This document shows, one piece after another, positions 1,348 through 64,000 of a stretch of 64,000 nt of DNA (position 1 is the stretch's first letter; each line of letters begins with the position of its first letter). The position numbers were made by a program, and so were the translations under genes. Origin of the DNA: a virus; the IMG/VR virus record IMGVR_UViG_3300010883_000015, positions 16,696 through 80,695 of that record; one strand, written 5' to 3'. A model generated the notes under the pieces. That model ran no database searches, was not told the DNA's origin, and saw only the letters and a program-made list of their open reading frames with translations.

Positions 1348-1411
1348 ACAACATATTGAACTTGGTTCGTCTTAATATTTCTTTAATTGTATTATCTCAA
1401 TAGGATTATAC

Positions 1412-1825
1412 ATGAAAAGCACTAGCGAAATGAAAGCCATAATTACCAGAAAGTTTTTCTATTCTGATATAGAACTGTTAGAAGTATTCCAGTCTGCATT
1501 ATTAATTTTTGTAAATCCATTTAATCTATCTTCAGTTGAATGCGCAGACTGCGGTACTTATCTTTCTTATATGTCTATCCCCAGTTTTATTATAGGAATT
1601 ATAACCATTATAAGTGTAATTTTTGATTACCATATAAAATCACGAATTAGAGTTGCAAGGCTTCACTGGGTTTTGTGTGTTGTCATAACTTCATTAATGT
1701 TATGTAGCACTGATCATATAGGTACCGGATTATTGTCTTATTATATTGTTCAGTGTGTATTTTGTGCATTTATTATAATTAGATTAAATTCTGAATTTTT
1801 ACACAACAAAAGAACAAGAGGATAA
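1412..1825 (+). CDS. Integral membrane protein, 137 aa
   Basis: The protein has about four hydrophobic segments: residues near 27-37, 53-72, 85-98 and 104-119. Two cysteines sit in the first loop (CADCG). It lies 4 bases before a small membrane-anchored coiled-coil gene. Such a pair could form a holin or spanin-like lysis unit, or be structural, but no diagnostic motif supports either. There is no endolysin next to it. Confidence 0.65.
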   Translation: MKSTSEMKAIITRKFFYSDIELLEVFQSALLIFVNPFNLSSVECADCGTYLSYMSIPSFIIGIITIISVIFDYHIKSRIRVARLHWVLCVVITSLMLCSTDHIGTGLLSYYIVQCVFCAFIIIRLNSEFLHNKRTRG

Positions 1826-1829
1826 TAAA

Positions 1830-2162
1830 ATGAATGAAATGGTTATAACTGCTATCCTTTCGTTAATTGGCGCTTTTTTTAGTGCCAAAGGTTGGGAATA
1901 CTGGCGAGCTAGAGAGCAAAACAAAAAAGAATTGGACATGAAGGAAAGAGAGGATGTTCACTTGTATCGAGATGATTTGCGCATAGAGGTAGGAAGACTA
2001 AGAACTGAACTTCAGGGAGTTTATATTAAACGAGAGGAGGAACTGCTTAAACTTACCAAGTCAATTGCTGATCTTCGTGCCGAACTAGCGAGTTTTAAAA
2101 CACGCGTAGAATTTCTAGAAAAAGAAAATCAAGAATTGCGAGATGCTCTTAATAAAAAGTAA
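1830..2162 (+). CDS. Membrane-anchored coiled-coil protein, 110 aa
   Basis: A single N-terminal hydrophobic helix (VITAILSLIGAFFSAKGW, residues 5-22) is followed by about 80 residues of charged heptad-like sequence ending LEKENQELRDALNKK. This predicts an inner-membrane anchor with a long coiled coil. The architecture resembles phage i-spanins (Rz) and small scaffold proteins, but no partner lipoprotein (Rz1) is visible. It probably works with the multi-pass membrane protein just upstream. Confidence 0.7.
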   Translation: MNEMVITAILSLIGAFFSAKGWEYWRAREQNKKELDMKEREDVHLYRDDLRIEVGRLRTELQGVYIKREEELLKLTKSIADLRAELASFKTRVEFLEKENQELRDALNKK

Positions 2163-2236
2163 AAAAATTATATTGTTAATAATTAATTAAGACAATATGC
2201 TTTATGTAGGTTCGAGAAACCATTACAGGAGTTAAT

Positions 2237-5098
2237 ATGTATAGTCACGCAATAGTTATTCCCACATGTGGAAATTATGAAACATTAACAGCAGGATTGC
2301 CCCGCTTTTTTGAGCACGCGAGCAAAGAAGTAATTATAATTTTAAGCATTAATCCAGTTATAAAAGTAGAAGCAGAAAGAGCATTAAAGATGATTACTGC
2401 TTTTTATGATGGGATTGATGGAGATAAGCCAGCATTTGACCATATATGGTCTGATAAAGCTATCGGTTTTGGTAATGCTGTAAATAAAGGAATTGACTAT
2501 CTAAGGGAAAAGTATGGCATTACTGAATTTATAACCATAGCAAATGATGATTTATTGGTTACGGAAGATTGGCTTACTAATCTTGAATTAGCTTTTAGTG
2601 CCAAAGAAATTGTGACAGTATCAACGCTTACTAATTCACAAAATAACCCTAAAAGAGATATTTCTTTTTTGAATGGTAAAATTGGAATGACAGGACCTAC
2701 CAGTAATGGTGTTTTTAATGATCAACGGGCTTATAATGCTGATTTACTTAATAAGGAAGGATTAGATCGTTATGCGAAATCAGTCTCAATAACAAATTCA
2801 GGTCATTACATTCCGACCTCTTTTCTTAGTGGTTTCTGCATTACATTCACTAAGGAATGCTTAGAAGATCTTTGTGATGAATCATTTAATTATAATGGAA
2901 TTTTTGATACGAGATTTAAAGTTGGTGGTTTTGAAGATGACGACCTAGCACATAGGGCATTAATAAAGGGGTGGAGACAGGTTATATCTGTTGCTGTTTT
3001 TGTTGGTCATGCAGTATCCAGTACCCTGAACCTTTACTTTGAAGGACAGAGGGGTGGTGTTGCCAATTGGGTTGATTATCTTTTAAAGTGGGAAGATTAC
3101 ACCCAGAAGGAACCTAAAATTATTGGAGCATATAGGGTTTCATTAAAGTGCGTTAATGATTTAAATCAATTACGCGCATCCTTAGTAAGAGCGGGAGATG
3201 TTCTGGATGGGGTTGGATTTGTTTTAACAAATAACCCAAAAGAAATAGTCGGTTCTTTTGATAATATGTTTATAAGTCATCTACCACCAGACGATCAGGC
3301 TTTTTTGGAAAAATGTAAATTACTTCCAGACGATATTAAAGAATGTTCTAATGAATTAAATGAATTGCTTAATGAATGGTTAACCAATTTATTAAGTAAT
3401 ACTGAAAGAGATATGGATGTAGCTTGTAAGGTTTGGACAGAAGTATTTAATGAGAGAGATGAAAGAAATCTAACTCATGAACTTTCAGAAAGTTTAAACT
3501 CAGATTGGATAATTTCTATTGATGCTGATGAAATATTTGAAGATCGGCTTACTAGAAAACATCTGGTTCGTATTGTTACGAATCCAAATCCTTCTAGATT
3601 TTGTTATAATGTAGGATTCTTAAATCATTGGGAATCAATGAAACTTCTTCGCCAAGATAGCAATTACGGTCAGCAAACAGGAGCTAGATTATGGAGATCT
3701 TTTCCTTCTAATCCAAGGATTGTTGGGGGTAATGAAGTCGGGTTCCATTGTGGAAACTCACCAGAACAAGGGAATTACTGTAGAAGAATTAGCGGGATAA
3801 GGATGAGGCATTTATCACACGTCCGACAGATAGACCGACATAATAAATATGAATTTTACAGCAAAACAGATACCGATAAACAGGTAGCTATGATAGGTGC
3901 CCAAACTTATCAGCACATTGTAAAGTCAGATAATGTTGTTGTTAGTTTGTATAATCCAAATAATGGAATTGCATTTTTCATGCTTTGTTATGAGCAAGAA
4001 GATTGGATTAATATCACAAGATGGTTGGATCAAGTCTATTCCGTTGCTGATAAATTAGTTCTAACATGGACGGGTGAGTGGGATCTTAAAGATAGGGCAT
4101 GGATTGAAAACATGGGATCGATAAAAGATTTGTCTGAAAAAGATTTCAATGAATTGTATAAGACTGGCCCTCGGTGGCACCTTGCTCAGGTTTCCAGACT
4201 TTTTAAAGTTGAATGGGTTTATAGTAAATTTGATTATGAAAAAGGTTTAGCGGAGTGTAGGAATTCTGCAATAAATCATATTCATGATACCAATGATGGA
4301 ACATTGGGGTGGTGTTGGTTTATGGATCCAGATGAAACCGCACAAGATATAGGAGTTATGTCTGGTTCAGCCCTAACGATAGCTCAAACCAGCGATAATA
4401 TTGGTTATATGTTTAAATTTCTTAATCCAACAGGGGATTCTGAGCGACCTGCAAATAGTGAAAGTATACGGTTGTTTAAATTAGACCCCAATCGTAGCTT
4501 GCAAATGGAAGGAAGAGTTCACGAAAGTTTTGAGGCATCTCTTAAGAAAATCAGAACAGAGAATTATATACCTAATATAGATTATTTCCCCGGTATTTTT
4601 ATTAATAGTGGCTTGTCACAAAGTCCTGAGCGAATGGCTGAAAAACTATTGAAGTATCGAGATCTTCTGGTTGTTCAATTAAAAGATGACATGTATGATA
4701 CGGGTGCTTGGGTTTCTCTTGGGTTACAATATTTGAATGATGACGATATTGATAATGCTGAACATTGTTATGATAACGCCCTTAAATGTGCAGGTGGTGC
4801 TTACTTACCATTTAAAGAATATGGAATTCATTGCTTAAGAAAGGCTGTTGTCCTTCTTCAGGAAAGCCATAGAAGAAGTAATTCTTCTGTTGATTTTCAT
4901 AAATTAAGTGAAGAAATGATCTCTACCTTGATAGGTTGGGATTTGTCCATGCCGATTGTAAATACAGGTGGTATATCTATAAGTGATACAACAATAATGC
5001 CTGAATTTATTGACCCCTCCAAAGCAGTAGAGAATCAAAGCAACCCTTCCGAAGAGGCTATTAATGAAATTATCCCTGAAGGTGTTAAAGGGTCCTAA
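2237..5098 (+). CDS. Multidomain glycosyltransferase (three GT-A modules plus TPR), 953 aa
   Basis: Three glycosyltransferase-2-like stretches can be read in order. Module 1 is about residues 1-290, opening with a strand ending IPTCGN and carrying the acidic NDDL at 103-106. Module 2 is about 400-560, with IDADEIFEDR near 428. Module 3 is about 585-785, with FMDPDETAQD near 695 and GRVHESF near 755. A TPR-like stretch follows at about 820-870. DxD-type acidic motifs in GT-A folds bind metal and a nucleotide sugar. It lies inside the tail gene run, has a good ribosome site (ACAGGAG), and its end overlaps the next tail gene by 35 bases. The likely role is glycosylation of virion proteins or host glycans. 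Sugar and acceptor are unknown. Confidence 0.8.
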   Translation: MYSHAIVIPTCGNYETLTAGLPRFFEHASKEVIIILSINPVIKVEAERALKMITAFYDGIDGDKPAFDHIWSDKAIGFGNAVNKGIDYLREKYGITEFITIANDDLLVTEDWLTNLELAFSAKEIVTVSTLTNSQNNPKRDISFLNGKIGMTGPTSNGVFNDQRAYNADLLNKEGLDRYAKSVSITNSGHYIPTSFLSGFCITFTKECLEDLCDESFNYNGIFDTRFKVGGFEDDDLAHRALIKGWRQVISVAVFVGHAVSSTLNLYFEGQRGGVANWVDYLLKWEDYTQKEPKIIGAYRVSLKCVNDLNQLRASLVRAGDVLDGVGFVLTNNPKEIVGSFDNMFISHLPPDDQAFLEKCKLLPDDIKECSNELNELLNEWLTNLLSNTERDMDVACKVWTEVFNERDERNLTHELSESLNSDWIISIDADEIFEDRLTRKHLVRIVTNPNPSRFCYNVGFLNHWESMKLLRQDSNYGQQTGARLWRSFPSNPRIVGGNEVGFHCGNSPEQGNYCRRISGIRMRHLSHVRQIDRHNKYEFYSKTDTDKQVAMIGAQTYQHIVKSDNVVVSLYNPNNGIAFFMLCYEQEDWINITRWLDQVYSVADKLVLTWTGEWDLKDRAWIENMGSIKDLSEKDFNELYKTGPRWHLAQVSRLFKVEWVYSKFDYEKGLAECRNSAINHIHDTNDGTLGWCWFMDPDETAQDIGVMSGSALTIAQTSDNIGYMFKFLNPTGDSERPANSESIRLFKLDPNRSLQMEGRVHESFEASLKKIRTENYIPNIDYFPGIFINSGLSQSPERMAEKLLKYRDLLVVQLKDDMYDTGAWVSLGLQYLNDDDIDNAEHCYDNALKCAGGAYLPFKEYGIHCLRKAVVLLQESHRRSNSSVDFHKLSEEMISTLIGWDLSMPIVNTGGISISDTTIMPEFIDPSKAVENQSNPSEEAINEIIPEGVKGS

Positions 5099-34738: not shown

Positions 34739-35428
34739 ATGTTCACTATAAAAGAAATTTTCGCGACACTTCAAGGTGAAGGATCAAGATCAGGAACTCC
34801 TGCGATCTTTGTAAGGTTTGCTGGTTGTAACCTATGGTCGGGACAAGATCATCTTCGAGAGAAAGGAAAAGGTCACTGTGCTTTATGGTGTGATACTGAT
34901 TTTTTTCGTGGAGATAAATATGAAGGTTCTGAATTATTAAACCGCCTCAATAGATTAACCTCTAAGTGGCAAGATAAGATGGTTGTATTTACAGGGGGAG
35001 AGCCTTGCTTACAATTAAAGAAGCCCGAAGCCGTAGGATTAATTGAAAGATTGCTAAATACAGGATGGGTGGTTGCAATAGAAACAAATGGAACGATATC
35101 TGCTGAAGAGTGTCAAGTGCTAAATATATTAAATGATCACCCGAATGGTCATATTACGGTTAGTCCGAAACCTCTTATGGATAAAAGTAAACGTCACAGT
35201 ATTGAGCATATTAAATTAAGATTTGGTACAGATTTAAAAATAATCATCCCAACAGTGTTACCTTTAAATGAATTTCAAGAGTTAAATTTTGAACATTTCT
35301 TCTTTCAACCAATGGATCTACAGGACGGGACTTCTGGATTAAGTTCAGTAGAAGAAACCATTGAATTCTGCATAACTTATGGATGGAGGCTATCTTGCCA
35401 AACACACAAATTTCTAAACCTACAATAG
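34739..35428 (+). CDS. queE: 7-carboxy-7-deazaguanine synthase (QueE), 229 aa
   Basis: The N-terminus IKEIFATLQGEGSRSGTPA and the cysteines of GCNLW and HCALWCDTDF (C30, C47, C51), then FTGGEP and AIETNGT, are characteristic of QueE. It is a radical-SAM enzyme that turns 6-carboxy-tetrahydropterin into 7-carboxy-7-deazaguanine using an iron-sulphur cluster. The cysteine spacing here is CX16CX3C, longer than the CX14CX2C of E. coli. It is the first pathway gene of the operon, and its end overlaps folE. Confidence 0.9.
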   Translation: MFTIKEIFATLQGEGSRSGTPAIFVRFAGCNLWSGQDHLREKGKGHCALWCDTDFFRGDKYEGSELLNRLNRLTSKWQDKMVVFTGGEPCLQLKKPEAVGLIERLLNTGWVVAIETNGTISAEECQVLNILNDHPNGHITVSPKPLMDKSKRHSIEHIKLRFGTDLKIIIPTVLPLNEFQELNFEHFFFQPMDLQDGTSGLSSVEETIEFCITYGWRLSCQTHKFLNLQ

Positions 35429-35979
35429 ATGAAGTAGAAAAAGCATTTAAAACTATATTGAAATATGTAGGCGAAGATCCAGAAAGAGAAGGCTTAAAAG
35501 AAACGCCTAAACGAGTAGCTAGATCATTAAAAGAATGGTTTTCAGGATATGACATAGATCCTAAATCTGTATTATCAACAACGTTTGAAGAAGTTGAAAA
35601 TTACAACGAGATTGTAGTTTTAAGAAATATTAGGCTAGAAAGTCATTGTGAGCATCACATGTGTCCTATTATTGGAACGGCAACGGTAGCTTACTTGCCT
35701 AGAAATAAAGTTGTAGGAATTTCAAAATTAGCTAGAGTAGTAGATGCATTCGCGAAGCGTTATCAAATTCAAGAAGTTATGACAAAGCAAATAGCAGACA
35801 CCATACAAGAAGTGTTAAATCCTAAAGGTGTTGCAGTTATAATTAAAGCACAGCATTTCTGTATTGGAACAAGGGGAATTCATAAGCATGAAAGTGATAT
35901 GATTACCTCCTGTATGCTTGGTGTATTTATGGAAGATAGCACAGCCAGACTAGAACTTATGCATTTAATAAAAGATTAA
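35383..35979 (+). CDS. folE: GTP cyclohydrolase I (FolE), 198 aa
   Basis: Motifs ESHCEHHMCPI (about 86-96), VGISKLARVVDAFAKRYQ and KAQHFCIGTRGIHKHESDM match FolE, which converts GTP into dihydroneopterin triphosphate with a zinc held by Cys and His. It is the first committed step to 7-deazaguanine. Two starts are possible: ATG 35383, which overlaps queE by 46 bases, or TTG 35395, which follows GGAGG at ideal spacing. The TTG may be the real start. Confidence 0.9.
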   Translation: MEAILPNTQISKPTIDEVEKAFKTILKYVGEDPEREGLKETPKRVARSLKEWFSGYDIDPKSVLSTTFEEVENYNEIVVLRNIRLESHCEHHMCPIIGTATVAYLPRNKVVGISKLARVVDAFAKRYQIQEVMTKQIADTIQEVLNPKGVAVIIKAQHFCIGTRGIHKHESDMITSCMLGVFMEDSTARLELMHLIKD

Positions 35980-35988
35980 GGATACAGT

Positions 35989-36789
35989 ATGCTTTCAGTA
36001 TTATCAGCAAGTGGTGGAATGGATAGCACCTCTCTTTTGATGAGACTCTTAGGAGAGGGTCATGAAGTCCATGCTATTTCATTTTATTATGGTCAAACCC
36101 ATTCTTTAGAATTGATTAGGCTTAAAGATAATATCACTTATCTTAGTGAAAATGGATACAAAGTAGTTCATAAAGTTATTAATATAAAATCTATCATGTC
36201 CTCCTTTCATAGCGCTCTGACTGGCTTAATTGATATGCCAGAAGGGCATTATGAAGAAGACAACATGAAAGATACTGTTGTTCCGAATAGGAATGCCATT
36301 TTTAGTTCTATCATATATGGTTATGCATTATCAGAAGCAAATAAACGAGGATGTAAAGCACAGGTTGCTCTTGGTGTTCATAGCGGGGATCATGCAATAT
36401 ATCCTGATTGCAGACCTGAATTCTATGACTATTTATTTATGGCTTTTGATTTTGGAAATTGGAATTCTGAAAGCGTTAAATTGTATCTTCCTTATTTAAA
36501 CGGAGATAAAGAAAGTATTCTAGTAGATGCTATCCATTATTGTAAGAAGTTAAGACTTGATTTTGATACCGTATTTGCGAACACAAACACAGGTTATGAT
36601 CCAGATGAAAAAGGAAGATCTAGCGGGAAAACTGGGGCAGATATAGAGCGCATATTAGCCTTTCACGCTATTGGAAGAACGGATCCGATAGAATATGTGG
36701 ACGGATGGGAAAGTGCCCTAAAGCACGCGATATCAACGCAAGAAAGACATGATACAGATAAAGAACAGCATTCAAATTCAGAGTCTTAA
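35989..36789 (+). CDS. queC: QueC-like preQ0 synthase lacking the zinc cysteines, 266 aa
   Basis: The PP-loop SASGGMDST (6-14) and the VPNRNAIFSS region are typical of QueC, which uses ATP and ammonia to convert 7-carboxy-7-deazaguanine into preQ0. Normally a Cys followed by CGxCxxC binds structural zinc. Here the aligned positions read TGY (G202) and SGKTGAD (S212, T215, D218), so all four cysteines are replaced. The R-x-x-F/A part after them is kept. It is either a zinc-free QueC or an enzyme with changed activity. It starts 10 bases after folE. Confidence 0.82.
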   Translation: MLSVLSASGGMDSTSLLMRLLGEGHEVHAISFYYGQTHSLELIRLKDNITYLSENGYKVVHKVINIKSIMSSFHSALTGLIDMPEGHYEEDNMKDTVVPNRNAIFSSIIYGYALSEANKRGCKAQVALGVHSGDHAIYPDCRPEFYDYLFMAFDFGNWNSESVKLYLPYLNGDKESILVDAIHYCKKLRLDFDTVFANTNTGYDPDEKGRSSGKTGADIERILAFHAIGRTDPIEYVDGWESALKHAISTQERHDTDKEQHSNSES

Positions 36790-36794
36790 TATCC

Positions 36795-37133
36795 ATGTCT
36801 TTATTCAAGAATAAACCATGGGGTTATGAGTTATTATTTGCTCATAGCGAATATTATGTTGGTAAGATTCTTTTCATAAAAAAAGGACATAGGCTGTCAC
36901 GTCAATACCATGAACAAAAAGATGAAACTATATTTGTTCTTAATGGAAAGCTTAATTTGGTTTTAAATAAATCAGAAGATCTTATTATTTTAGAACAAGG
37001 AGACTCTTACAGAATAAATCCACTTATAATTCACAGGATGGAGGCCAAAGAAGGAGACGTTAAATTAGTGGAAGTATCTACTCCTGAACTCAATGATATA
37101 GTCAGATTAGAGGATGATTATGGAAGAGTTTGA
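36795..37133 (+). CDS. Cupin, mannose-6-phosphate isomerase-like, 112 aa
   Basis: The sequence KPWGYELL, then GHRLSRQYHEQKDETIFVLNG and INPLIIHR, then STPELNDIVRLEDDYGR, matches the cupin of type II mannose-6-phosphate isomerase and GDP-mannose pyrophosphorylase tails. His and Glu residues of the two cupin motifs are visible. Small stand-alone copies often sit in polysaccharide clusters and act on sugars or stabilise them. It begins the sugar cluster, 5 bases after queC, and overlaps the next gene by 20 bases. Confidence 0.75.
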   Translation: MSLFKNKPWGYELLFAHSEYYVGKILFIKKGHRLSRQYHEQKDETIFVLNGKLNLVLNKSEDLIILEQGDSYRINPLIIHRMEAKEGDVKLVEVSTPELNDIVRLEDDYGRV

Positions 37134-42865: not shown

Positions 42866-43139
42866 TACTCAAATTGCGACTATAAGATTGAATTTATTAG
42901 ATCTAAATAAAAGCGCGAATGAGCCTCAATTTAAATCTTTAATAAGCGATGGATGGACTGTTATTTCTTCATTGGCGGTACAAGAAGAAGAACGACCTAC
43001 TTTAATTTTACTGTTGGCTCCCCCTAAAGAAGAAATCAGGGTTAAAGTTGAAAAGGAAATAAAGATAAAACTAATAATCATGATTATTATTCAAATATTA
43101 ATAGCAATTGTTTTAATAAAGGGAGGCCTGTATGCCTAA
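42852..43139 (+). CDS. Hypothetical protein with C-terminal membrane helix, 95 aa
   Basis: The frame extends upstream into queD, but ATG 42852 (MRSNNTQIAT) gives a 14-base overlap and is the preferred start. A final hydrophobic helix (IKLIIMIIIQILIAIVLIKG, residues 72-91) would anchor the short N-terminal domain in the membrane. No family recognised. Its end overlaps the ParB-like gene by 8 bases, so it is part of the modification operon. Confidence 0.6.
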   Translation: MRSNNTQIATIRLNLLDLNKSANEPQFKSLISDGWTVISSLAVQEEERPTLILLLAPPKEEIRVKVEKEIKIKLIIMIIIQILIAIVLIKGGLYA

Positions 43140-43767
43140 GGTAATAGAAGAAATAGAAGTAGAAGAAGGTCAAAAAGTAGAAACAGAAAAAGTAGGGGAA
43201 TGGGTGCACCTAGATCAATTGGTGGAATGGGATCAGAATCCAAGATTTAACGACCAAGCGATAGATCAAATTGCTGATAGTATAAAAAAGTTTGGTTTTT
43301 CTTCTCCTATAATTGCTAGAAAAGCAGATAACAAAATAATTGCAGGACATACAAGATTTAAGGCTGCTCAGTCCTTAGGTATGCAATTTGTTCCTGTCCG
43401 ATTTATGGACTTGTCAGAAACAGAAGCAAAGGCTCTTGCCCTTGCCGATAACAGGCTCGGAGAGATAGCATCTTGGGACGACGGGCTGTTAGGTGACGTG
43501 CTATCTGAATTAAAGAAAGAAGGCGTAGATATGGACATATTGGGCTTTTCTCAACAAGAAGTCGATCAATTGTTAGGAAATTGGACTGATCCTTTTTGGG
43601 ATGAAGATGAACTTAATAGCAGTGAATTAAATGATGACGAAATAGAAGATAATGGTCAATCAATAATCTATATCACCGTAGCTATAAATAGAGCCAAAGA
43701 TACTAGTGATCTCATTACAGAATTGCTAAATAGCAACAACATAGAACATACAATTAAATTAAAATAA
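43132..43767 (+). CDS. ParB-like nuclease-domain protein, 211 aa
   Basis: Residues 25-90 (HLDQLVEWDQNPRFNDQAID, IKKFGFSSPIIARKADN, IIAGHTRFKAA) match the ParB/sulfiredoxin-fold domain, including the GHTR motif. A helical region follows (ALALADNRLGEIASWDD). Stand-alone copies are common in phages beside DNA modification enzymes. It lies just before queF and dpdA, so a role in DNA modification, similar to the partner protein DpdB in bacteria, is worth considering. No ParA was seen, so plasmid partition is unlikely. Confidence 0.75.
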   Translation: MPKVIEEIEVEEGQKVETEKVGEWVHLDQLVEWDQNPRFNDQAIDQIADSIKKFGFSSPIIARKADNKIIAGHTRFKAAQSLGMQFVPVRFMDLSETEAKALALADNRLGEIASWDDGLLGDVLSELKKEGVDMDILGFSQQEVDQLLGNWTDPFWDEDELNSSELNDDEIEDNGQSIIYITVAINRAKDTSDLITELLNSNNIEHTIKLK

Positions 43768-43780
43768 AAGGATTTACAAC

Positions 43781-44257
43781 ATGACTGATGATGAAAAATA
43801 TGAGTCTCATGGGAATTCTTCGCAATTAAAATCCCTTGGGAATGCCAAAACTAAATACCCAACAACGCCAGACGAGGCAGAGTTAGAGAAAATACCGTGG
43901 AAAGGAGAAGGCTTTAGTTACGTTACTTGGGAATGCCCTGAATATACTTGTGCTTGTCCCAAAACAGGCCAACCTGACTTTGCAACAGTCTATATACAAT
44001 ACATACCAGAAGCATATATTGTAGAAAGTAAATCATTGAAAATATATTTATTCTCTTTCCGTAATTATGGTCATTTCCATGAAGTTGGGATTGAAAGAAT
44101 TGCTAAAGATATATTTGATTTTATACAACCTAAATTCTTAAGAGTAGTTGGAGACTTCAATAAGAGAGGAGGGATATCAATTGTCCCTATTTCAGAATTT
44201 GGAGATCTTTCTTTATCTAGCTCTATACCTATTCCTAAAATAACATATGGCTCTTAA
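43781..44257 (+). CDS. queF: NADPH-dependent preQ0 reductase (QueF), 158 aa
   Basis: The motif ESKSLKIYLFSFRNYGHFHE (82-101) is the QueF signature, and YTCACPKTGQPDFATVYIQY holds the catalytic cysteine (C59) and aspartate (D66). QueF reduces the nitrile of preQ0 to the aminomethyl of preQ1, using NADPH. The length matches the short (unimodular) QueF form. Its presence with DpdA predicts preQ1, not preQ0, as the inserted base. The stop TAA overlaps the next ATG. Confidence 0.9.
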   Translation: MTDDEKYESHGNSSQLKSLGNAKTKYPTTPDEAELEKIPWKGEGFSYVTWECPEYTCACPKTGQPDFATVYIQYIPEAYIVESKSLKIYLFSFRNYGHFHEVGIERIAKDIFDFIQPKFLRVVGDFNKRGGISIVPISEFGDLSLSSSIPIPKITYGS

Positions 44258-45147
44258 TGCCTATTAAATTCCATAATTTAGTTTCTTTTGCATTATTTGG
44301 AGATCGAATTAATGAAGGCTTGCATCCAGAATGGAATACTATGTTGGATAGCGGGGGATTTACAAACTTTGTAAGAGGTAAAGATATTGTTACCTTGAAA
44401 GATTATTGTATGTATCTTAAAACCGAAAAGGTAAGGTTTTGGGAATATATGGCTCTCGACCGAATTGGGGATAAAAAGATCAGCGGGGAGTATCTTAATA
44501 AAATGATAAGCGTCGGTCTTGCTCCTGTTCCAATTTATCAGAGAGGAGAAGGAAGTGCCAAAGAATTAACTAAGATGATAGAAGCAAATAGATTAATTGC
44601 TATTGGTGGAATCTCTCAAAACCTTTCAGCCAAAGCCGAGCAAGAGTACCTTCGTAACGTAATGAGGGTGGTAAGAAAAGTTCCGACTGCAAAGGTTCAT
44701 CTTCTTGGGGTAGGTGTTAGAGAAGCCAAGCTATATTGCCCTTATAGTTCAGATAGTAGCACTTGGGCTAGTCATTTTAGATTTGGGATTATTCGTCTTT
44801 GGCATCAAGGTAAATTGTTAGACTTCCAAAAACATAAGACTGCTCAACACGCCAAGAGATATGTTAGGCCGAATCCAAATTACACACGATGTTTAGCTAA
44901 ATATAGCCTGACTTGGAATGATCTATATGATAATGCCGATTGGTCTAAGCCTGAAAGTAAATTAAGCATAGCAGCAACTAGGTCTTGGATAAGGCAATCT
45001 AGGTCTTTGTATCGAAAAGATAGCAGATATTTATTAGCAAGTTTACCAATAAATGTTCAAGCGATTAAAGAGGCTTGGAATTATGAAAGAATTTCATGGG
45101 GTTGGCCTAAGTCTAAATTCATAAGTATACCATCTGAAAAGAAATAA
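44257..45147 (+). CDS. dpdA: DNA 7-deazaguanine transglycosylase (DpdA-like), 296 aa
   Basis: The catalytic region NTMLDSGGFTNF (Asp31) and ALDRIGD (Asp68) are the phage DpdA form of the tRNA-guanine transglycosylase fold, with LIAIGGISQN and HLLGVGV as further TIM-barrel strands. It exchanges guanine in DNA for a 7-deazaguanine base. It ends the operon, 1 base overlapping queF. The zinc cysteines of tRNA-type enzymes were not located by eye, which is common in DpdA. Confidence 0.88.
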   Translation: MPIKFHNLVSFALFGDRINEGLHPEWNTMLDSGGFTNFVRGKDIVTLKDYCMYLKTEKVRFWEYMALDRIGDKKISGEYLNKMISVGLAPVPIYQRGEGSAKELTKMIEANRLIAIGGISQNLSAKAEQEYLRNVMRVVRKVPTAKVHLLGVGVREAKLYCPYSSDSSTWASHFRFGIIRLWHQGKLLDFQKHKTAQHAKRYVRPNPNYTRCLAKYSLTWNDLYDNADWSKPESKLSIAATRSWIRQSRSLYRKDSRYLLASLPINVQAIKEAWNYERISWGWPKSKFISIPSEKK

Positions 45148-45281: not shown

Positions 45282-45345
45282 TAATATAAATATATTTTAA
45301 AAGACCCTATGAATAATATAAATATATTTTAAAAGACCCTATGAA
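45282..45345 (+). repeat. Perfect 32-bp tandem duplication before a gene start
   Basis: The 32 bases at 45282-45313 are repeated exactly at 45314-45345. The second copy ends 4 bases before the GGAG of the next gene's ribosome site. Each copy contains an ATG with a short reading frame. A slipped-strand duplication is the simple explanation, but each copy could tune expression. Confidence 0.85.
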
Positions 45346-50211: not shown

Positions 50212-50280
50212 TTTTAAATCACATCGATACTTTTGGTGTATGATCTTTGTTGTTTATAGAATGTTATATGTTTTTCTTTA

Positions 50281-50313
50281 AAAGAGAGTCCCTTCTGTGG
50301 CTCTCTTTTTTTT
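50281..50313 (+). terminator. Intrinsic terminator
   Basis: AAAGAGAG (50281-50288) pairs with CTCTCTTT (50301-50308), closed by inner CC/GG pairs, and is followed by a T tract. The 727-base gap 50212-50938 beyond it has no gene. It is AT-rich and includes a direct repeat ACTTATTAGTTCTA near 50534 and 50557 and a promoter at 50770. Confidence 0.85.
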
Positions 50314-50769
50314 ATTCTAAATATTCAAACCTAAAATTCAGATTGAGTTTTGAGTTCAGATAATTTTTAATATTTACTGTTATTAATATAAAAAAATTAA
50401 AAAAATGAAACAATTAATTACATGCTTATTACTTATTATTTGTGATCCAAAATTCAGGACGGTATTTGGTTTCAAATAAAAAGTTTTTGCCACTATATTA
50501 ATATTTTTATTTTATTTTTTTGAAAATGAAATCTTACTTATTAGTTCTACTAGATACTTATTAGTTCTATGGTTTTGTGGATTATTACACTTATTAGTAT
50601 TTATTTATTTACCTGAAATTAGTTGTTTATTTGTTCCTTGAATTGGTACGACTAATCCTTTGTTGTTTTATTTAACTTTATTCATAATTTGAACTTGGTT
50701 GCTTATATTTAGTTCTTATTTTTTTGTAGATATTATCTTTATATATTCATAAATTTTAAAGATTTATTA

Positions 50770-50827
50770 TTGACATTTCCTTTGCATTCTCTATTGTTCC
50801 GATAAGCTCGGCATTATAGAGATATGC
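50770..50827 (+). promoter_or_regulatory. Promoter-like leader P1 with shared motifs
   Basis: TTGACA (50770-50775), 16 bases, TATTGT (50792-50797), then TCCGATAAG (50798-50806). A second element GCATTATAGAGATATGC follows at 50811-50827. These elements resemble those upstream of 53128, 55815 and 61779. It leads to the gene at 50939, about 140 bases downstream. Confidence 0.6.
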
Positions 50828-50938
50828 TTGCTCTTGGAACTAGCAACTGGAATGGATTTTTTATGATAAAATGCTAAATTGATATTGTGAAAAGAAATTC
50901 ACATTCTCAAATAATCATAAATAAAAAGGAAAATTATC

Positions 50939-53057: not shown

Positions 53058-53127
53058 TGGAAAGAAACACATAATGAAAATCTCATTCATTATTTTACTT
53101 AAATCATTCATAAAAAAAGGAAATGTT

Positions 53128-54345
53128 ATGAATACCAACTCAACCCTCATTAAGAACTCTAAACTATTAGATGGTGTCAGGACTGAACTTAATTCTAAAT
53201 TCTTAGAAAGAGAAGATGAAATCAATTGCATACTTACTGCTCTTGTTAGTAATACAAATGTTCAATTTATAGGAGCGCCAGGAACCGGAAAGTCTGCTTT
53301 GGCAAATTCTGTTTCACACTTGTTAAATTGCTCTTTCTTTAAAGTGAATTTGGATCAAGATTTAGATCCTGATTTTGTTATAGGCCATATCTCATTAAAA
53401 GAAATGAGAGATAATGACCGAATAATCCGTAACACATCAGGCAAGATTGCAGATGGACAACTTGTCTTCTTGGATGAGTGTAATAAATGTAATAGCGCCA
53501 TGAAAAATGCATTGCTTTTACCTCTTAACGAACGTCAGGTTGATATAGGCGATGGTATACCAAGAGATACAGAGATCAGAAGCGTTATTGGTGCCAGTAA
53601 TGAGTATCCCGGTTGTACTTCAATCGACGACGATACCGATCATCTTGTTCACGATCCAAACTGGGATAGATGGGCGCTAAGAATGGAGGTTAGATATATC
53701 GAAGCCGATCACAATTTCAAGGATCTTTTGATTAATAGATTTACAGTTGGCAAGGTTGATAAATCTTTAGCTATTGACCTCTCTATTATAGATGAAATGA
53801 GGATGGCTCTTTATAGTGTGAATTTAGATAATGTTATGGATCTAATATGTAAATTTAGAACCTTACTGCAAAGACAAGCAATAAATCTATCAGACCGTAG
53901 GTGGATGACAATTTGTAAATTGATTTCAGCACAAACAGTTATGCGCGGATCTCTTACTGCTAAGGGTGAAGACCTTATGATACTTGAACATGCTCTGTGG
54001 AGAACACCAGAAGAAAAGTCTATTACAGACATGGTTATACAAGACAATATTAAGTCACAATATATTGAATCAAAGAAGATTCTCGGTATCGTTAAGGCGA
54101 CAATTAAATCTACACTTGAAGCAATAAAAGAAGATGACATTAATTGCAAAGACACTAAAAGCAAAAGTCGTGCAGTTGCAATGCTTACTTCTTCAAAGGA
54201 TTTACTGGTAGATCAAGTTCGCTCTGCTGGATCTAAGAATTGGACTTGCCCAAAGGCACTGAAAGTTAAAGAAGAAATAGGTGGGCTTATTCAATCTTTA
54301 GGAATTGAAGCACACAAAAGAATGAACTTAAACATAAATCTATAA
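53128..54345 (+). CDS. MoxR/CobS-like AAA ATPase, 405 aa
   Basis: The frame is open from an upstream ATG at 53074, but ATG 53128 (MNTNSTLIKN), after AAAAAGGAAATGTT, is the better start. Walker A FIGAPGTGKSALA lies near residue 49, Walker B LVFLDECNKCNSAMK near 111, and SVIGASNEYPG follows, all as in MoxR/CobS ATPases. These usually work with a VWA protein to load metal or remodel complexes. The partner here is the CobT-like gene at 55815. Other phages carry such pairs, but the substrate is unknown. Confidence 0.85.
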   Translation: MNTNSTLIKNSKLLDGVRTELNSKFLEREDEINCILTALVSNTNVQFIGAPGTGKSALANSVSHLLNCSFFKVNLDQDLDPDFVIGHISLKEMRDNDRIIRNTSGKIADGQLVFLDECNKCNSAMKNALLLPLNERQVDIGDGIPRDTEIRSVIGASNEYPGCTSIDDDTDHLVHDPNWDRWALRMEVRYIEADHNFKDLLINRFTVGKVDKSLAIDLSIIDEMRMALYSVNLDNVMDLICKFRTLLQRQAINLSDRRWMTICKLISAQTVMRGSLTAKGEDLMILEHALWRTPEEKSITDMVIQDNIKSQYIESKKILGIVKATIKSTLEAIKEDDINCKDTKSKSRAVAMLTSSKDLLVDQVRSAGSKNWTCPKALKVKEEIGGLIQSLGIEAHKRMNLNINL

Positions 54346-55229: not shown

Positions 55230-55489
55230 ATAATCGAGTAATCAGTAAGTGATTTATAAATTGAACAAAAGAACTAGAAGCTTGGCTGTGATCTAAATTT
55301 GCAATAGAGATAAATAGCATTTATGTCATTTAAACGCTCAAAAAGGGCTAAATTAAGCCTTTAGATTCAATATCCGTCTATCTGTATCAATTCCAATATA
55401 GAGCTTAAATTATAGCCGATTCTGAGAGGGTTGAATTTAGGTTAGTGTTTTCGTGACAAGAAGGCAGTCAAATTGCTTGTGTACTATAT

Positions 55490-55592
55490 ATAAAATAATT
55501 AATTAAATTATAATTAATTATAATTATAAATTAAATTACTAATCTTAAATTATAATTTATTAATCTTAAATTATAAATTAAATTACTAATAT
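55490..55592. repeat. AT-only region with nested direct repeats
   Basis: About 100 bases are nearly all A or T. A perfect 20-base direct repeat TTATAAATTAAATTACTAAT occurs at 55524-55543 and 55571-55590, and TAATCTTAAATTATAA occurs at 55540 and 55561. The region could melt easily, as in replication origins, or be slippage. It lies about 70 bases before leader P3. Confidence 0.7.
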
Positions 55593-55814: not shown

Positions 55815-57323
55815 ATGGACTTTAAACCAAAAGCAAAAAAGAACCTAAGCAGAAGAGTAAGTGACTTTTCTCGTTTTCTACATGATCAAAGACATTTCTA
55901 CGGAACCAATGCATTCAGGCAAACAAGAAAACTAGAAAATAGATTAGCTTATGAATTTAAAGTAAAGTGCAACCTTGAAATTACAAATGAAGAATTAAAC
56001 TCTGATATGGAATTGTTTGCTACTGAAATGTTTTCAAGAATGTATGAAGATTCAGATATTTCTGAGACTGTTGATAAACAATGGGCAGAAGACATACATG
56101 AAATCTTAGATGCTCAGTCAGAGTTTCAGTCAATAAAAAGAATGGCTAGAAGGGATCCAGATCTGGCTTCTTTAGCTACTGCTTACACATTCAATCACTT
56201 TAAAGAAGAAATATGCTCAGTTATTACATACAGAAAACAAGAAGAGCAGGAAAACAAAAAGAAAGAACAAGAAAGAGAACAAGGACAAGAAAAGTCTAAA
56301 GGAAAAGGTCAGGATCAAGAACAGAAAGAAAAAGGAGAAAATAGTCAAGACAAGGCTGTCTCTAAGCTACCTGAATCATTGAAGAACGAGTTCCTCTCAA
56401 AAGCAATGGATTTTTCTGAAAGTGTTGAAGAAATAGGGGAACTAAAAGAAGCAATGTCAGGAATCGGGTCGTTGGGATCAACAAAGGAATTAAGCACTGA
56501 AAGAACAGAGCTAATTAATTCATTGACAACAAATGGATCACTTAAAAACATCTTAAAGATGGTTGGAAGATTGAAAAAGTTAATGAATTCTTTTCCCGCT
56601 CTTGTTAAGTCTAAAAGAAAAGAAAAGATTTATGAGATAGAGCAGGACAGGGCACCTAAAGAACTCAGCAGGGAGCGAATGTTAGCTGCTAATGATGACA
56701 CTTTTGACCAGTATTGTTTTAGATTTGCTACTCGTAAACAATGGAAGAAAAAGAAAGGGAACGGTCAAGACGAATCGGGACTAGGTCCAATACTTATGTG
56801 TATCGATACATCTGGTTCTATGCATGGGGAAAGAATTGAACTTGCAGTAGCTTTAGCTATTGCAACCGCAAGTATTGCAAGCGATACAAAAAGAGAATTT
56901 AAGGCGGTAACATTCAACAAAAAGTTGGGACATGAATTCTACATACCAAAGAAAGCTAGAAATTCAGATGTTCTAACTGTTTTAAAGATGATTTCAAAGC
57001 TAGGTGCAAGTGGAGGAACATCATTTAATCCACCTGTTAAATGGGCGGTAGATCAAGCTTTGAAACACCCAAAATCAGACATATTGTTCTTGACTGACGG
57101 AACAGGGAGTTGTTCTACGAAAATGTCTAGTATGTTAGAATTTGCCAAGAAAAAGAGAGGGCTAAGACTCTTTACTGTATTGATTGGGGAAGATGATTAC
57201 CCGCATGCAGGTGGTATCGAAGAGATATCTGATGGAGTTATCAACGTCAAAGAACTTACAGAAAACAAGTCAATTAATGAATTGGCAAGACTGATGAAAT
57301 CAATCAAAACAAGAAAACTATAA
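55815..57323 (+). CDS. CobT-like protein with VWA domain, 502 aa
   Basis: The C-terminal 175 residues are a von Willebrand A domain with the MIDAS motif MCIDTSGSMHG near 327, KFNKKLG-type strand and DILFLTDGTG near 422. Residues 141-182 are a highly charged linker rich in Gln, Glu and Lys. The N-terminal part is helical. Bacterial CobT proteins with MIDAS motifs pair with AAA ATPases (CobS) in cobalt or magnesium chelation. Together with the ATPase at 53128 this forms a phage-borne pair. Metal insertion is unproven. It is expressed from leader P3. Confidence 0.82.
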   Translation: MDFKPKAKKNLSRRVSDFSRFLHDQRHFYGTNAFRQTRKLENRLAYEFKVKCNLEITNEELNSDMELFATEMFSRMYEDSDISETVDKQWAEDIHEILDAQSEFQSIKRMARRDPDLASLATAYTFNHFKEEICSVITYRKQEEQENKKKEQEREQGQEKSKGKGQDQEQKEKGENSQDKAVSKLPESLKNEFLSKAMDFSESVEEIGELKEAMSGIGSLGSTKELSTERTELINSLTTNGSLKNILKMVGRLKKLMNSFPALVKSKRKEKIYEIEQDRAPKELSRERMLAANDDTFDQYCFRFATRKQWKKKKGNGQDESGLGPILMCIDTSGSMHGERIELAVALAIATASIASDTKREFKAVTFNKKLGHEFYIPKKARNSDVLTVLKMISKLGASGGTSFNPPVKWAVDQALKHPKSDILFLTDGTGSCSTKMSSMLEFAKKKRGLRLFTVLIGEDDYPHAGGIEEISDGVINVKELTENKSINELARLMKSIKTRKL

Positions 57324-59673: not shown

Positions 59674-59751
59674 AATACTCCATATGGTATTCCCTCTGTA
59701 TCGGGATTGTAGAGGATCTTTAAAATAATATGAAACTTTCAGGAGACAATG

Positions 59752-60507
59752 ATGCCAAGGCTATATAAGAAAAACAAGAAGAATCCTACTCCTCGCGAGG
59801 TCGAGTCCTCGGGAATAAAACGTATGAAATGTGAAACCGAAAGGCATCACAGAGCGTTCCTACTCTATGCTATGCAGTCCTTATCTGCTCGCAAGGCATT
59901 GCCTATCAGTCGTATCATGAGTGTGTCTCATACTGCGGTTCAGCAATGGAGGAAAAAGTATCGTTGGGAGTCAAGAGTGACCTCGCAAACAATTGAAGTT
60001 GAGGCGCAGCAATTATACAAGGCTTTGTATGGCGGTACTTATGGGGTTGTAGAGATTAGTCAGATTGAAAAGAATATAGCAACTCCTGTTAGCGCCTCGT
60101 CTCCTGTTTCTCAAAGTGTAGCAGACAGCGTTACTGATGCTATTAAGCAGGCGCAGAGCCAGCCGACTACTGTGCACGGTAAAGAGATGAAGAAGAAGCA
60201 GATGATGATACTAGATGCTGCGATTGGTTATGTTGCGCAAGGTATTAGGGATCAGAGTATCAGGAGGAACATACGCGACCTTCCCGTACTAATTGGTCTG
60301 CGCAATGAGCTAGCTGGTGACGGAGTCAAGGCAGATGGTAGGACAATAATGATCGAGAGTTTGCGAGTTAAGGATGCTAAGGCAAGCGGTGGTAATGTTA
60401 TAGAGGCAATGTTTGAAGATGCACTAGAATTGACATTAATATTAAAGAACTTAAAGGGTAATGAAGCAAGTGCCCAAATACACCCAAAGGAAACAAGTAA
60501 TGAGTAG
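59752..60507 (+). CDS. Helix-turn-helix protein, possible small terminase subunit, 251 aa
   Basis: Adjacent ATGs occur at 59749 and 59752; the second has better spacing from AGGAG. Residues about 45-80 (KALPISRIMSVSHTAVQQWR, then KKYRWESRV) form a helix-turn-helix like those of small terminase subunits and phage transposition regulators. The C-terminal half is helical, then acidic. The gene has higher G+C than the sugar cluster (27 of 60 in one sampled line). TerS would recognise the packaging site, and repeats lie just downstream. No large terminase is in the window, so the call is tentative. Confidence 0.45.
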   Translation: MPRLYKKNKKNPTPREVESSGIKRMKCETERHHRAFLLYAMQSLSARKALPISRIMSVSHTAVQQWRKKYRWESRVTSQTIEVEAQQLYKALYGGTYGVVEISQIEKNIATPVSASSPVSQSVADSVTDAIKQAQSQPTTVHGKEMKKKQMMILDAAIGYVAQGIRDQSIRRNIRDLPVLIGLRNELAGDGVKADGRTIMIESLRVKDAKASGGNVIEAMFEDALELTLILKNLKGNEASAQIHPKETSNE

Positions 60508-60892: not shown

Positions 60893-61063
60893 TTACTTGG
60901 TGAAGTATGCGTGTTTTCCGTTTGTAAGAAATGCGCCTAACTTGCACTAAAACTGGACCCAAAAAGCATTTAGTTGCAAAATAATCCATTTAATGCCTTG
61001 AAGTTGCAATTAGGTTGCAATTCAGGGTGTTATTGGTTTCAATTAAAAATGTACTGAATTCAG

Positions 61064-61139
61064 ATTGGTTATTCTTTTAATTAAAAACGCAACTGTCCAA
61101 TTCAGGATGGTTTTCTGTTTTATTAAAAACGTAAGTGCC
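61064..61139. repeat. Dispersed motif ATTAAAAACGyAAsTGyCCA, two copies
   Basis: The pattern ATTAAAAACG followed by yAA and TGyCC occurs at about 61080-61098 and 61122-61140, and again at 63909-63928. Each is next to a stretch like AATTCAGGATGG. The gap 60893-61778 has no gene. Confidence 0.5.
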
Positions 61140-61194
61140 CACTAGCTCTGGTTGCACTGAAACTAATTGGTATTCCAGTATCAGTTTTAGTGAT

Positions 61195-61345
61195 ACTAAT
61201 TAGTGCTCCTGATTAGTGATACTAATTAGTGATACTAATAAGGGCCGTAACAAAGTTACATGTTACGATTACTAATTAGTGCTACACGCGTAACGTAACA
61301 ATGTTTCGTAACGTAACAATGTTTCGTGTTACGGAACTAATTAGT
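61195..61345. repeat. Iteron-like cluster A: four ACTAATTAGT palindromes
   Basis: Perfect copies of the 10-base palindrome ACTAATTAGT lie at 61195, 61221, 61271 and 61336. The same palindrome is repeated in cluster B, 2 kb to the right. Such repeats suit a protein-binding array at an origin, operator or packaging site. Confidence 0.85.
61290..61325 (+). repeat. 18-bp tandem repeat in cluster A
   Basis: GTAACGTAACAATGTTTC occurs twice in direct tandem, 61290-61307 and 61308-61325. Its core GTAACG is the complement of the CGTTAC found in the TTGTTACG repeats of cluster B. Confidence 0.85.
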
Positions 61346-61624
61346 TGTCCATTTGCTCTACTGGTATGTTTGGATCTGGATCGGTTGTTGTTTGCAAGAT
61401 CAATCTTGAACTGACAGAATGCTATATTTTGTGCTCTTTGTAGCGTGTTAATGCATAGCTTTAAAGCTCTATATCTGCCGTTTATAGCGCTTTATAGCCG
61501 TTTCTATATGTATAGATAGCAAGCAAGACAGATGTTCTAAGATCGATGCACCGATAAAAATGTATGATGTGTGAACTGATGCTCATTACGCTCATGATCG
61601 TCTGAATTGCTGTCAATATATAAT

Positions 61625-61747
61625 TTAACATTCATTTAACATTTGCTTATTATGTCGATACGTAGCGCCTTTTAGACGTTCTCAGTTATATTCCGAAATA
61701 GACTGAATAATCACATATCACATACATGCTTTATAATATAGATATGC
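61625..61747 (+). promoter_or_regulatory. Promoter-like leader P4 with shared motifs
   Basis: TTAACA (61625-61630), exactly 17 bases, TATTAT (61648-61653), then GTCGATACG (61654-61662), matching leader P3. The second element GCTTTATAATATAGATATGC lies at 61728-61747. It precedes the gene at 61779. Confidence 0.65.
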
Positions 61748-61778
61748 AATTCAGCATATTTTCAAAAAGGAAGACAAA

Positions 61779-62009
61779 ATGTCAGCTATATATCTCTCAA
61801 TACTTTCTGTTCTAGAAGCTCTAGAAGAAACCGGACACGCTACATTCATTAAAGGCGAAGACGGTTGCTCTCAAATCTACGAGATAAACGATCTATGGAT
61901 CAGTTTTGGAGAAAGTGGAATCAATTGCATCGGTGAGAACAAAAAAAATGCAGACGGAAGCTTTCCAGTTCTATGGACATCAGACGTAAAAGGCGGTGAA
62001 GAATGTTAA
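61779..62009 (+). CDS. Hypothetical protein, 76 aa
   Basis: The first gene after leader P4, with AAAAAGGAAGACAAA before its ATG. Mixed sequence, no motif. Overlaps the next gene by 7 bases. The product may be an early protein. Confidence 0.6.
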   Translation: MSAIYLSILSVLEALEETGHATFIKGEDGCSQIYEINDLWISFGESGINCIGENKKNADGSFPVLWTSDVKGGEEC

Positions 62010-62398
62010 AATTATTTATTAATTATCTAAGCGGAGCATATCCAGACATGAAACTGGAATTTAATGACATTGGATGTGTCGCTATTCAGTTTCCAGAAAT
62101 TGAAAAAAATAAAGGCAAAATCTGCTTTGTTGATATGCAGGATGAAGATGAGTCAGTAGCGCTACATTGTATTCATTGGAAGACTGATGGAGATGATCGG
62201 TGGTTTTTTCGGCGTGTTTTTGAATGCGAGTTCAACACAGAAGAACAAATCAAAACTGGAATTGATTTTATGATGGAGTCTGATTCCAGCACTATAACAT
62301 TGGAAGAGTTGTATTCTGGATGCGATACATGCTGGGGTCCTAATAATGAAACGTATCCATCAGGAATATATGATGTTCAGCAAAAAGGAGTTTCGTAA
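62003..62398 (+). CDS. Hypothetical acidic protein, 131 aa
   Basis: Acidic, with an alternating beta pattern (VALHCIHWKTDGDDRWFFRR). Overlaps the gene before it by 7 bases and the next by 1 base. No domain recognised. Confidence 0.65.
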   Translation: MLKLFINYLSGAYPDMKLEFNDIGCVAIQFPEIEKNKGKICFVDMQDEDESVALHCIHWKTDGDDRWFFRRVFECEFNTEEQIKTGIDFMMESDSSTITLEELYSGCDTCWGPNNETYPSGIYDVQQKGVS

Positions 62399-62625
62399 TG
62401 TCAACGAATCAGCGCAAAAAAACTAAAATAGCTATCGGAGCTTATTCAGTTTGTATCGATGCAATAGAATATATCATCACTCATGCGAAAGGCATGGACG
62501 ATGTGGTGGACAGAAATGGACACATCTTACAAGAGACAGTTGAGCAATTGCTTCATCAGTATGAATATCTATCAGAAAAAGAAACAGAAACCGTAATATC
62601 ATTCTTTAATGGAGTTTCACAATGA
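62398..62625 (+). CDS. Hypothetical protein, 75 aa
   Basis: A small helical protein with a basic start (STNQRKKTKIAIG) and an acidic end (QYEYLSEKETETVISFF). Overlaps neighbours by 1 and 4 bases. Function unknown. Confidence 0.6.
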   Translation: MSTNQRKKTKIAIGAYSVCIDAIEYIITHAKGMDDVVDRNGHILQETVEQLLHQYEYLSEKETETVISFFNGVSQ

Positions 62626-62993
62626 CAATCAATAAACAAAACATAGAATCAGTTGCAACAGCACATGAGCGTAATTGCTTTATACCAGTATCATATATCG
62701 CATTAGACGGAAGCTATTGGATATTTGAAACTAAGCATTGGAGCGGAGTCACATACAGTGGATCAGCAGAGCGAGCGATTAGTATGATAGAGAACGACTC
62801 TTGCGAACTGTGGCTCTATAAATGGCATGGAACCGATATAAAGATATTGGACTCACTGCTCATATCTACGAAAGGAGCAAGCTTTCCTGATTCTGTCGAT
62901 GATTTTAAATCTGCTCCACTTGTAATACAGAATGAGTATAAGCAATTTATTAAGAATCGAAATAACGAAACTATACAAAAAGTAGGTGCGTAA
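62622..62993 (+). CDS. Hypothetical protein, 123 aa
   Basis: Mixed soluble protein with a core SYIALDGSYWIFETKHWS. The stop TAA overlaps the next ATG. No family recognised. Confidence 0.65.
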   Translation: MTINKQNIESVATAHERNCFIPVSYIALDGSYWIFETKHWSGVTYSGSAERAISMIENDSCELWLYKWHGTDIKILDSLLISTKGASFPDSVDDFKSAPLVIQNEYKQFIKNRNNETIQKVGA

Positions 62994-63163
62994 TGGAGAG
63001 AATATCAGAATTAGTGCCGACAGAAGAAGACTCTGTCTTGAACTCGTGCAGAGAGATCGCTCTGTCAGTCTCTTATACGTCAGTCATTCTTCCGATTGCA
63101 TGCTTCGTTGTTTCAGGGTCAATCGCAATCGCATTTCTAATCTTCGCAAAACTATTAATCTAA
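62993..63163 (+). CDS. Small membrane protein, 56 aa
   Basis: This 56-codon frame is coupled to the gene before it as TAATG. It has an N-terminal polar part (ERISELVPTEEDSV) and one long hydrophobic segment (TSVILPIACFVVSGSIAIAF). A longer frame on the same strand, from a GTG at 62986, is a false extension through the next small gene. Function unknown. Confidence 0.65.
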   Translation: MERISELVPTEEDSVLNSCREIALSVSYTSVILPIACFVVSGSIAIAFLIFAKLLI

Positions 63164-63177
63164 TAACAGGAGTGACA

Positions 63178-63345
63178 ATGAATCAATTTATATTTGGAAT
63201 ATCTTTAACCGTGTACATGGCTTGCTTGTATTCTATATGCACCTCATATTCTTACACGGAGCCATTTATCGGGCTTGTTATATCAACAGTGTGTATCATT
63301 GGAACGGGAGTGTTTGCTGTTGTGAGAGACGCTATACAAGACTGA
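63178..63345 (+). CDS. Small membrane protein, 55 aa
   Basis: ATG 63178 follows ACAGGAGTGACA, a strong ribosome site. The product is nearly all hydrophobic, with two likely membrane helices (IFGISLTVYMACLYSI and FIGLVISTVCIIGTGVFAVV). No family recognised. Together with the preceding gene it may form a small membrane module between the two repeat clusters. Confidence 0.65.
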   Translation: MNQFIFGISLTVYMACLYSICTSYSYTEPFIGLVISTVCIIGTGVFAVVRDAIQD

Positions 63346-63404
63346 TATAAGCGATTAATTAGTGTAGCCATTAGCTCGGTTACTTTAATTAATCACAAAG
63401 GAAA

Positions 63405-63790
63405 ACTAATTAGTCAATTCAGATTGATACTGAGATTAAAGAAAAACGTTGAGATCCACTGATCTGGTTAGCACTAATTAGTTTGTTACGATTTGTTACG
63501 ATCAGTTGTTACGATTTGTTACGTTTCACTAATTAGTGTGCTTCGATTTATTGCAATTACTAAATAGTGCGCTTGGAATATTCTACAAATTACTAAATAG
63601 TTTGTTACGATTTGTTACGTTTTACTAATTAGTTTGTTTCGGATATTCTACATTTTACTAAATAGTGTGTTTCGAAATTACTAAATAGTTTGTTTCAGAC
63701 GTTTCGCTAATACTAAAAGTATTAAGTGGAAATAAATAAACAACTAATTAGTAATCCGAAAAGGACTCTGGCTACCGTCTACTAATTAGT
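63405..63790. repeat. Iteron-like cluster B: ten ACTAATTAGT or ACTAAATAGT copies
   Basis: ACTAATTAGT occurs at 63405, 63473, 63528, 63624, 63743 and 63781; ACTAAATAGT at 63559, 63592, 63657 and 63680. From 63528 to 63657 the centres are 31, 33, 32 and 33 bases apart, about three helical turns. Between them run TTGTTACG repeats at 63483, 63493, 63506, 63516, 63602 and 63612, mostly 10 bases apart. The whole 655-base end of the window has no gene. Confidence 0.9.
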
Positions 63791-64000
63791 AGCGAGACGC
63801 TAGGCACTAGATCAGTTTCTTTAAATATATTTATTTGCAAGTGATTGATTCCGTCGGTGATTATTTGCTTAATTGCTCACACCAGAATTCATACAGCTTT
63901 TAGTTTCTATTAAAAACGTAAATGTCCACTGAATTACAGAATCTCGATAGCTAGGGCGGTGTAGACGGAAAGCTCTACGATCTCGTGTCTATCGGCATCA

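Follow-up and report, generated by a model that had tools for sequence, protein, structure and literature searches.

Palindrome arrays around a small-gene block in an uncultured phage are candidate upstream regulatory modules

Introduction

What is the role of two dense clusters of a single 10-bp palindrome that lie on either side of a block of small genes in an uncultured phage of roughly 81 kb? An initial annotation described the clusters as iteron-like with three-turn spacing and suggested a cooperative protein array at an origin, a packaging site or an operator, with a nearby helix-turn-helix protein as candidate binder. The window analyzed here is a stretch of 64,000 nucleotides, taken from a virus record of 80,695 bp (bases 16696-80695), and the right ends of window and record coincide. 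Coordinates are window positions unless marked as record positions. The phage group is uncultured, with genomes of roughly 75-86 kb. Throughout, P denotes the palindrome ACTAAWTAGT, Q the motif TGTTACG/CGTAACA, and R a third repeat of 36-45 nt.

Results

The initial annotation had counted 14 copies of ACTAAWTAGT, and both this number and the positions given for them are correct: ten are exact ACTAATTAGT and four are ACTAAATAGT. Four sites (61195, 61221, 61271 and 61336) form cluster A (61195-61345), and the other ten (63405, 63473, 63528, 63559, 63592, 63624, 63657, 63680, 63743 and 63781) form cluster B (63405-63790). Counted on both strands, P yields 24 strand-hits compared to 0.62 expected from dinucleotide shuffles, and none of 100 shuffles reached 24. 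Over the complete 80,695-bp record, a count that the annotation had itself proposed, there is no P outside the two clusters. A common palindrome scattered evenly through the genome, which was to speak against a special array, is therefore not what we observed. Furthermore, P is letter-perfect in A and B although the flanks of the two clusters are unrelated. The P array is real, non-random and of a generally familiar kind.

Successive gaps of 31, 33, 32 and 33 bp had been reported for cluster B, and these are likewise accurate. Placing 10 sites randomly in 386 bp seldom yields a run of four gaps that agree to within 2 bp (p = 0.001). The remaining gaps are mixed (26, 50, 65, 68, 55, 23, 63 and 38 bp), and helical phasing across the whole of cluster B is not significant (p = 0.065). 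When sites with one mismatch are included (61162 in A, 33 bp upstream of the first site of that cluster; 63354 in B; 50536, 50556 and 50589 in region C, described below), 6 of 16 adjacent gaps measure 31-33 bp (p = 5e-5, to which a tandem repeat contributes part). This repeat was detected with TRF on the plus strand at 63557-63674 and consists of 3.6 copies of a 33-bp unit, the palindrome plus TGTTWCG. Since the gaps of 31, 33, 32 and 33 bp coincide with it, the regular spacing is partly inherited by duplication. Hence, the proposed three-turn spacing holds locally beyond chance, but the array as a whole is out of helical phase and in part a tandem repeat.

Both clusters are embedded in long non-coding regions without a conserved ORF. 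Region A (60893-61778) contains, besides cluster A and the leader of the gene block, three tandem R copies of 36-45 nt (61018-61133, plus strand), a 13-bp half-site repeat TTAGTGATACTAA within the cluster (61187-61239), Q motifs (61246-61333) that include two 18-bp copies of CGTAACGTAACAATGTTT, and promoter-like sites. Region B (63346-64000), which reaches the record end, carries Q-motif 10-bp repeats TTTGTTACGA (63482-63523, plus strand), a diverged R copy within cluster B (63415-63450, plus strand) and a further R copy 3' of the cluster near the record end (63885-63920, plus strand). P, Q and R are thus all common to A and B, with R present in three tandem copies in A and two copies in B. 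The Q motif is enriched in A and B, with 11 copies compared to 8 in the remaining genome. The term "iteron-like" is apt in that the repeats are clustered; it does not fit in that the sites are palindromic and accompanied by two further repeated motifs. A promoter-like site precedes the gene block (61710-61737, plus strand; a consensus match only), and promoter matches in the region were not above those in shuffles, with none overlapping the arrays convincingly. Rfam and tRNA scans were empty. The block itself (61779-63345, plus strand) comprises six small genes encoding proteins of 76, 131, 75, 123, 56 and 55 aa, all acidic, for none of which a family match was found.

A third, degenerate module, C, was found at 50212-50938, upstream of gene 50939. 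It contains R-like sites at 50335 and 50450 and P-like sites ACTTATTAGT at 50536, 50556 and 50589. In a scan with an R position weight matrix the five training copies scored 37-44 and the next hit, at 50450, scored 17.3, a value reached by one of 100 shuffles. Beside it lie the three ACTTATTAGT copies, 20 and 33 bp apart. Outside A and B, P matches six times when up to one mismatch is allowed, and three of these hits fall within 60 bp in C, which did not occur in any of 200 shuffles. Consequently, the R-P arrangement occurs three times. A, B and C each lie about 340-430 bp upstream of a plus-strand gene or, in the case of B, of the record end, beyond which a relative has its next gene. BLAST matched A to C at 1e-5, but some matches of C to AT-rich background are at least as good, and the result was for this reason not relied on alone. 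A promoter element, TATAATATAGATATGC at 61732 and CATTATAGAGATATGC at 50812, is apparently common to A and C; we did not count it as evidence, since the search pattern was built from these two sites.

The helix-turn-helix protein proposed as binder is encoded at 59749-60507 on the plus strand (annotated earlier as 59752) and is followed by P130 (60500-60892, plus strand), a conserved gene that adjoins TerS or TerL in relatives. Searches with the 59749 protein as a single query against viral contigs and against phage and plasmid records found nothing, and at a pLDDT of 39 its AlphaFold model could not be used. The TerL gene of the phage belongs to the phrog_675 group (record position 856-2520, minus strand), and contigs found via TerL relatives show TerS-type synteny. 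In L124 a homologue of 59749 is the first gene of a compact TerS-P130-ParB-ATPase-TerL operon, and L104 again has P130 after its homologue, which is 43% identical. By this synteny, and with weak TerS profile matches, 59749 is most likely a small terminase.

L104 also reveals what follows. Its gene order is TerS-P130-[block]-zinc-ribbon gene, and so the order continues across the record ends of our phage. The block in L104 is a different one and includes a MoxR-type ATPase and a VWA-like protein, the latter assigned by reading. While no close relative covers the motif-bearing stretch and the homologous stretch is covered only by L104, the intergenic regions of L104 in that stretch contain no palindrome array or such repeats, and loci of other relatives have no palindrome cluster comparable to the present arrays. 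Because L104 keeps the genes without the array, the array is lineage-specific and not a general trait of the TerS or zinc-ribbon families. The same observation leaves 59749 as binder without specific support. Searches for P pairs in 2.9 million viral contigs returned 31 stretches with at most five copies each, none recognised as related, and a search of about 85,000 genomes for P pairs spaced as in the array returned 38 stretches with at most four copies each. The P-Q composite was found in eight stretches of viral contigs, one composite apiece. Two GC-rich viral contigs, L014 and L016, carry five ACTAAWTAGT at 17-18 and 34-bp steps and are apparently unrelated to the phage.

Some further loci deserve description in their own right. 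The MoxR-type and VWA-like genes of L104 occupy the place held here by the arrays and the small-gene block, and the window has a pair encoding a RavA/MoxR-type ATPase and a VWA-domain protein at 53125-54345 and 55815-57323, with very AT-rich non-coding ATTATAATTAATTA-type repeats before the VWA gene (55489-55590). A 32-bp AT-rich unit is perfectly duplicated in tandem at 45282-45345. Next to a ParB_N protein, 34739-37133 and 43132-45147 hold genes for 7-deazaguanine DNA modification, namely QueE-, FolE-, QueC- and QueD-like enzymes, a QueF domain protein and a DpdA/TGT-like protein with a weak tgt match; except for QueF and ParB_N, the assignments at this locus were made by reading. At the end of contig L109 is a long low-complexity stretch rich in G and T.

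The zinc-ribbon gene (L005:151-432, starting at record position 151) lies 150 bp beyond the record ends and encodes a basic protein of 93 aa (pI 9.35). Since L104 keeps the gene order, module B faces this gene in a circular or concatemeric genome; the record may miss sequence at its ends, including some that would separate B from the zinc-ribbon gene. Homologues lie near terL in five relatives (L098/G001, L102, L104, L105 and L106). The best Pfam match of the family is the NrdR DNA-binding domain (five of six members, best E 7e-6), with an NrdR-domain score of 26.3, just below the curated cut-off of 27.2. An AlphaFold model (pLDDT 78.6) had NrdR structures as its top Foldseek matches in the PDB, with probabilities up to 0.99 and E-values of 0.07 and above, which are not significant. 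The 93-aa protein has no ATP-cone match and is too short to hold one. The palindrome is missing from relatives whose zinc-ribbon protein is 46-56% identical, and among them only L104 covers the homologous stretch. As a separate observation, the relatives L102 and L126 contain repeated promoter elements at dispersed positions, in which a palindromic operator of the type TAACNCA-N-TGNGTTA separates TTGAC from the -10 region; the two contigs come from one metagenome, sum to 79.3 kb and may be halves of one phage.

Discussion

The idea of a dedicated, cooperative-looking binding array is well supported by these data, and among the roles first suggested for it (origin, packaging site or operator) we favor gene control, because copies of the motif set precede different genes, as module C illustrates. 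Our leading explanation, held tentatively and at somewhat less than even confidence, is that P, Q and R form upstream regulatory modules in long non-coding stretches, preceding a plus-strand gene or operon by a few hundred bases, and that P is the site of a dimeric phage-encoded DNA-binding protein controlling the adjacent genes. Module C would act on gene 50939, module A on the small-gene block starting at 61779, and module B, at the record end, on the zinc-ribbon gene, as judged from the syntenic relative. With sites spaced by about three turns, bound dimers would share one face of the DNA and could bind cooperatively, and an interaction of A with B could place the gene block between them in a DNA loop. 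The outcome may be repression, or timed activation, of the A, B and C units. The arrangement resembles the stoperators of mycobacteriophages in that many copies of one phage-specific site would serve one regulator. Stoperators, however, are asymmetric sites dispersed over the genome (PMC9283540), whereas P is a palindrome limited to two upstream regions, or three if C is counted.

Could the palindromes instead be initiator-binding repeats of a replication origin? In plasmid-type replicons, repeat clusters are found on both sides of the rep gene, and the phage arrays likewise are repeats clustered in non-coding DNA, one cluster on each side of a gene block. Among the phage genes is one for a DnaB-type primase-helicase, and a DNA polymerase gene was not recognised, so the phage probably uses the host replisome at a defined origin. 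Against placing this origin at the arrays, the block at 61779-63345 encodes small acidic proteins and no initiator-like one, the replication genes lie about 30 kb away, and the GC skew does not turn at the arrays, its detrended minimum being at record position 10235. There is no strict DnaA box (TTWTNCACA) near the arrays, and no 60-bp stretch of at least 75% AT alongside array B that could represent an AT-rich unwinding region. Moreover, the phage sites are perfect palindromes, in contrast to directional iterons, and the third related module C precedes an unrelated gene. An origin is therefore an alternative that we take seriously and consider unlikely.

Slightly less likely again is a packaging region in which the small terminase 59749 binds the arrays and marks the genome end for cutting. 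Its appeal lies in position: in circular order the arrays lie between TerS and TerL, array A begins 0.7 kb downstream of 59749, and the record ends 210 bp after the last P site. In four of six contigs above 60 kb (the record of the window, L101, L109 and L117) the distance from terL to a contig end is at most 3.5 kb, which hints at physical ends near terL in the phage group. The repeats themselves, however, disrupt assemblies, and contig ends need not be real ends; a terminal repeat was not found in the 80,695-bp record. Known cos and pac sites bound by TerS are also repeated sites near terminase genes, but the phage sites are far more numerous, spread over 2.6 kb, and absent beside the TerS of L104. 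Since the syntenic L104 has a TerS without the array, packaging loses weight, and module C lies 10 kb away before a different gene. A packaging role nevertheless keeps some place, because 59749 is most likely the small terminase.

We regard it as very unlikely that the small genes belong to an insertion whose ends, A and B, are bound by a recombinase. The arrays do bracket a block that is replaced by different genes at the same place in L104, yet the block encodes no recombinase, the palindromes are symmetric with no sign of ends or of a target duplication, and C has the R-P arrangement without a bracketed block. A neutral repeat expansion free of function, to which the 33-bp tandem repeat in part of B might point, deserves slightly less credence again, given that P stays exact within the unrelated flanks of A and B, occurs solely in non-coding DNA and has no copy elsewhere in the record.

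If the arrays are regulatory modules, which protein would bind them? Here, the zinc-ribbon protein is a reasonable, if speculative, candidate, because of its NrdR-like domain match and because NrdR binds palindromes about three turns apart. The NrdR repressor requires a pair of palindromes separated by a whole number of helix turns, commonly about three when measured between their centres (PMC12051234; PMC9110341), and its boxes are 16 bp long, with C and G ten bases apart and a spacer of 14-17 bp between paired boxes (PMC9110341). The likeness thus consists in palindromes that zinc-ribbon pairs would bind about three turns apart and in a zinc ribbon that Pfam and the predicted fold both place close to NrdR. 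Gaps of 31-33 bp occur in part of the P sites, the others being mixed. In contrast to NrdR boxes, the C-to-G distance in ACTAATTAGT is 8 bp rather than 10 bp, the phage array consists of many 10-bp palindromes instead of two boxes, and the candidate binder has no ATP-cone. The more specific proposal, that a free-standing NrdR-type zinc ribbon without ATP-cone, encoded next to the terminase genes of a phage family, binds three-turn arrays as a nucleotide-independent switch specific to that family, appears improbable to us at present.

If the regulatory reading is right, it would pinpoint the main control region in one phage of this uncultured group, whose genomes measure roughly 75-86 kb. It would also offer a simple test of whether phages took over an NrdR-type DNA-binding domain without the nucleotide sensor.
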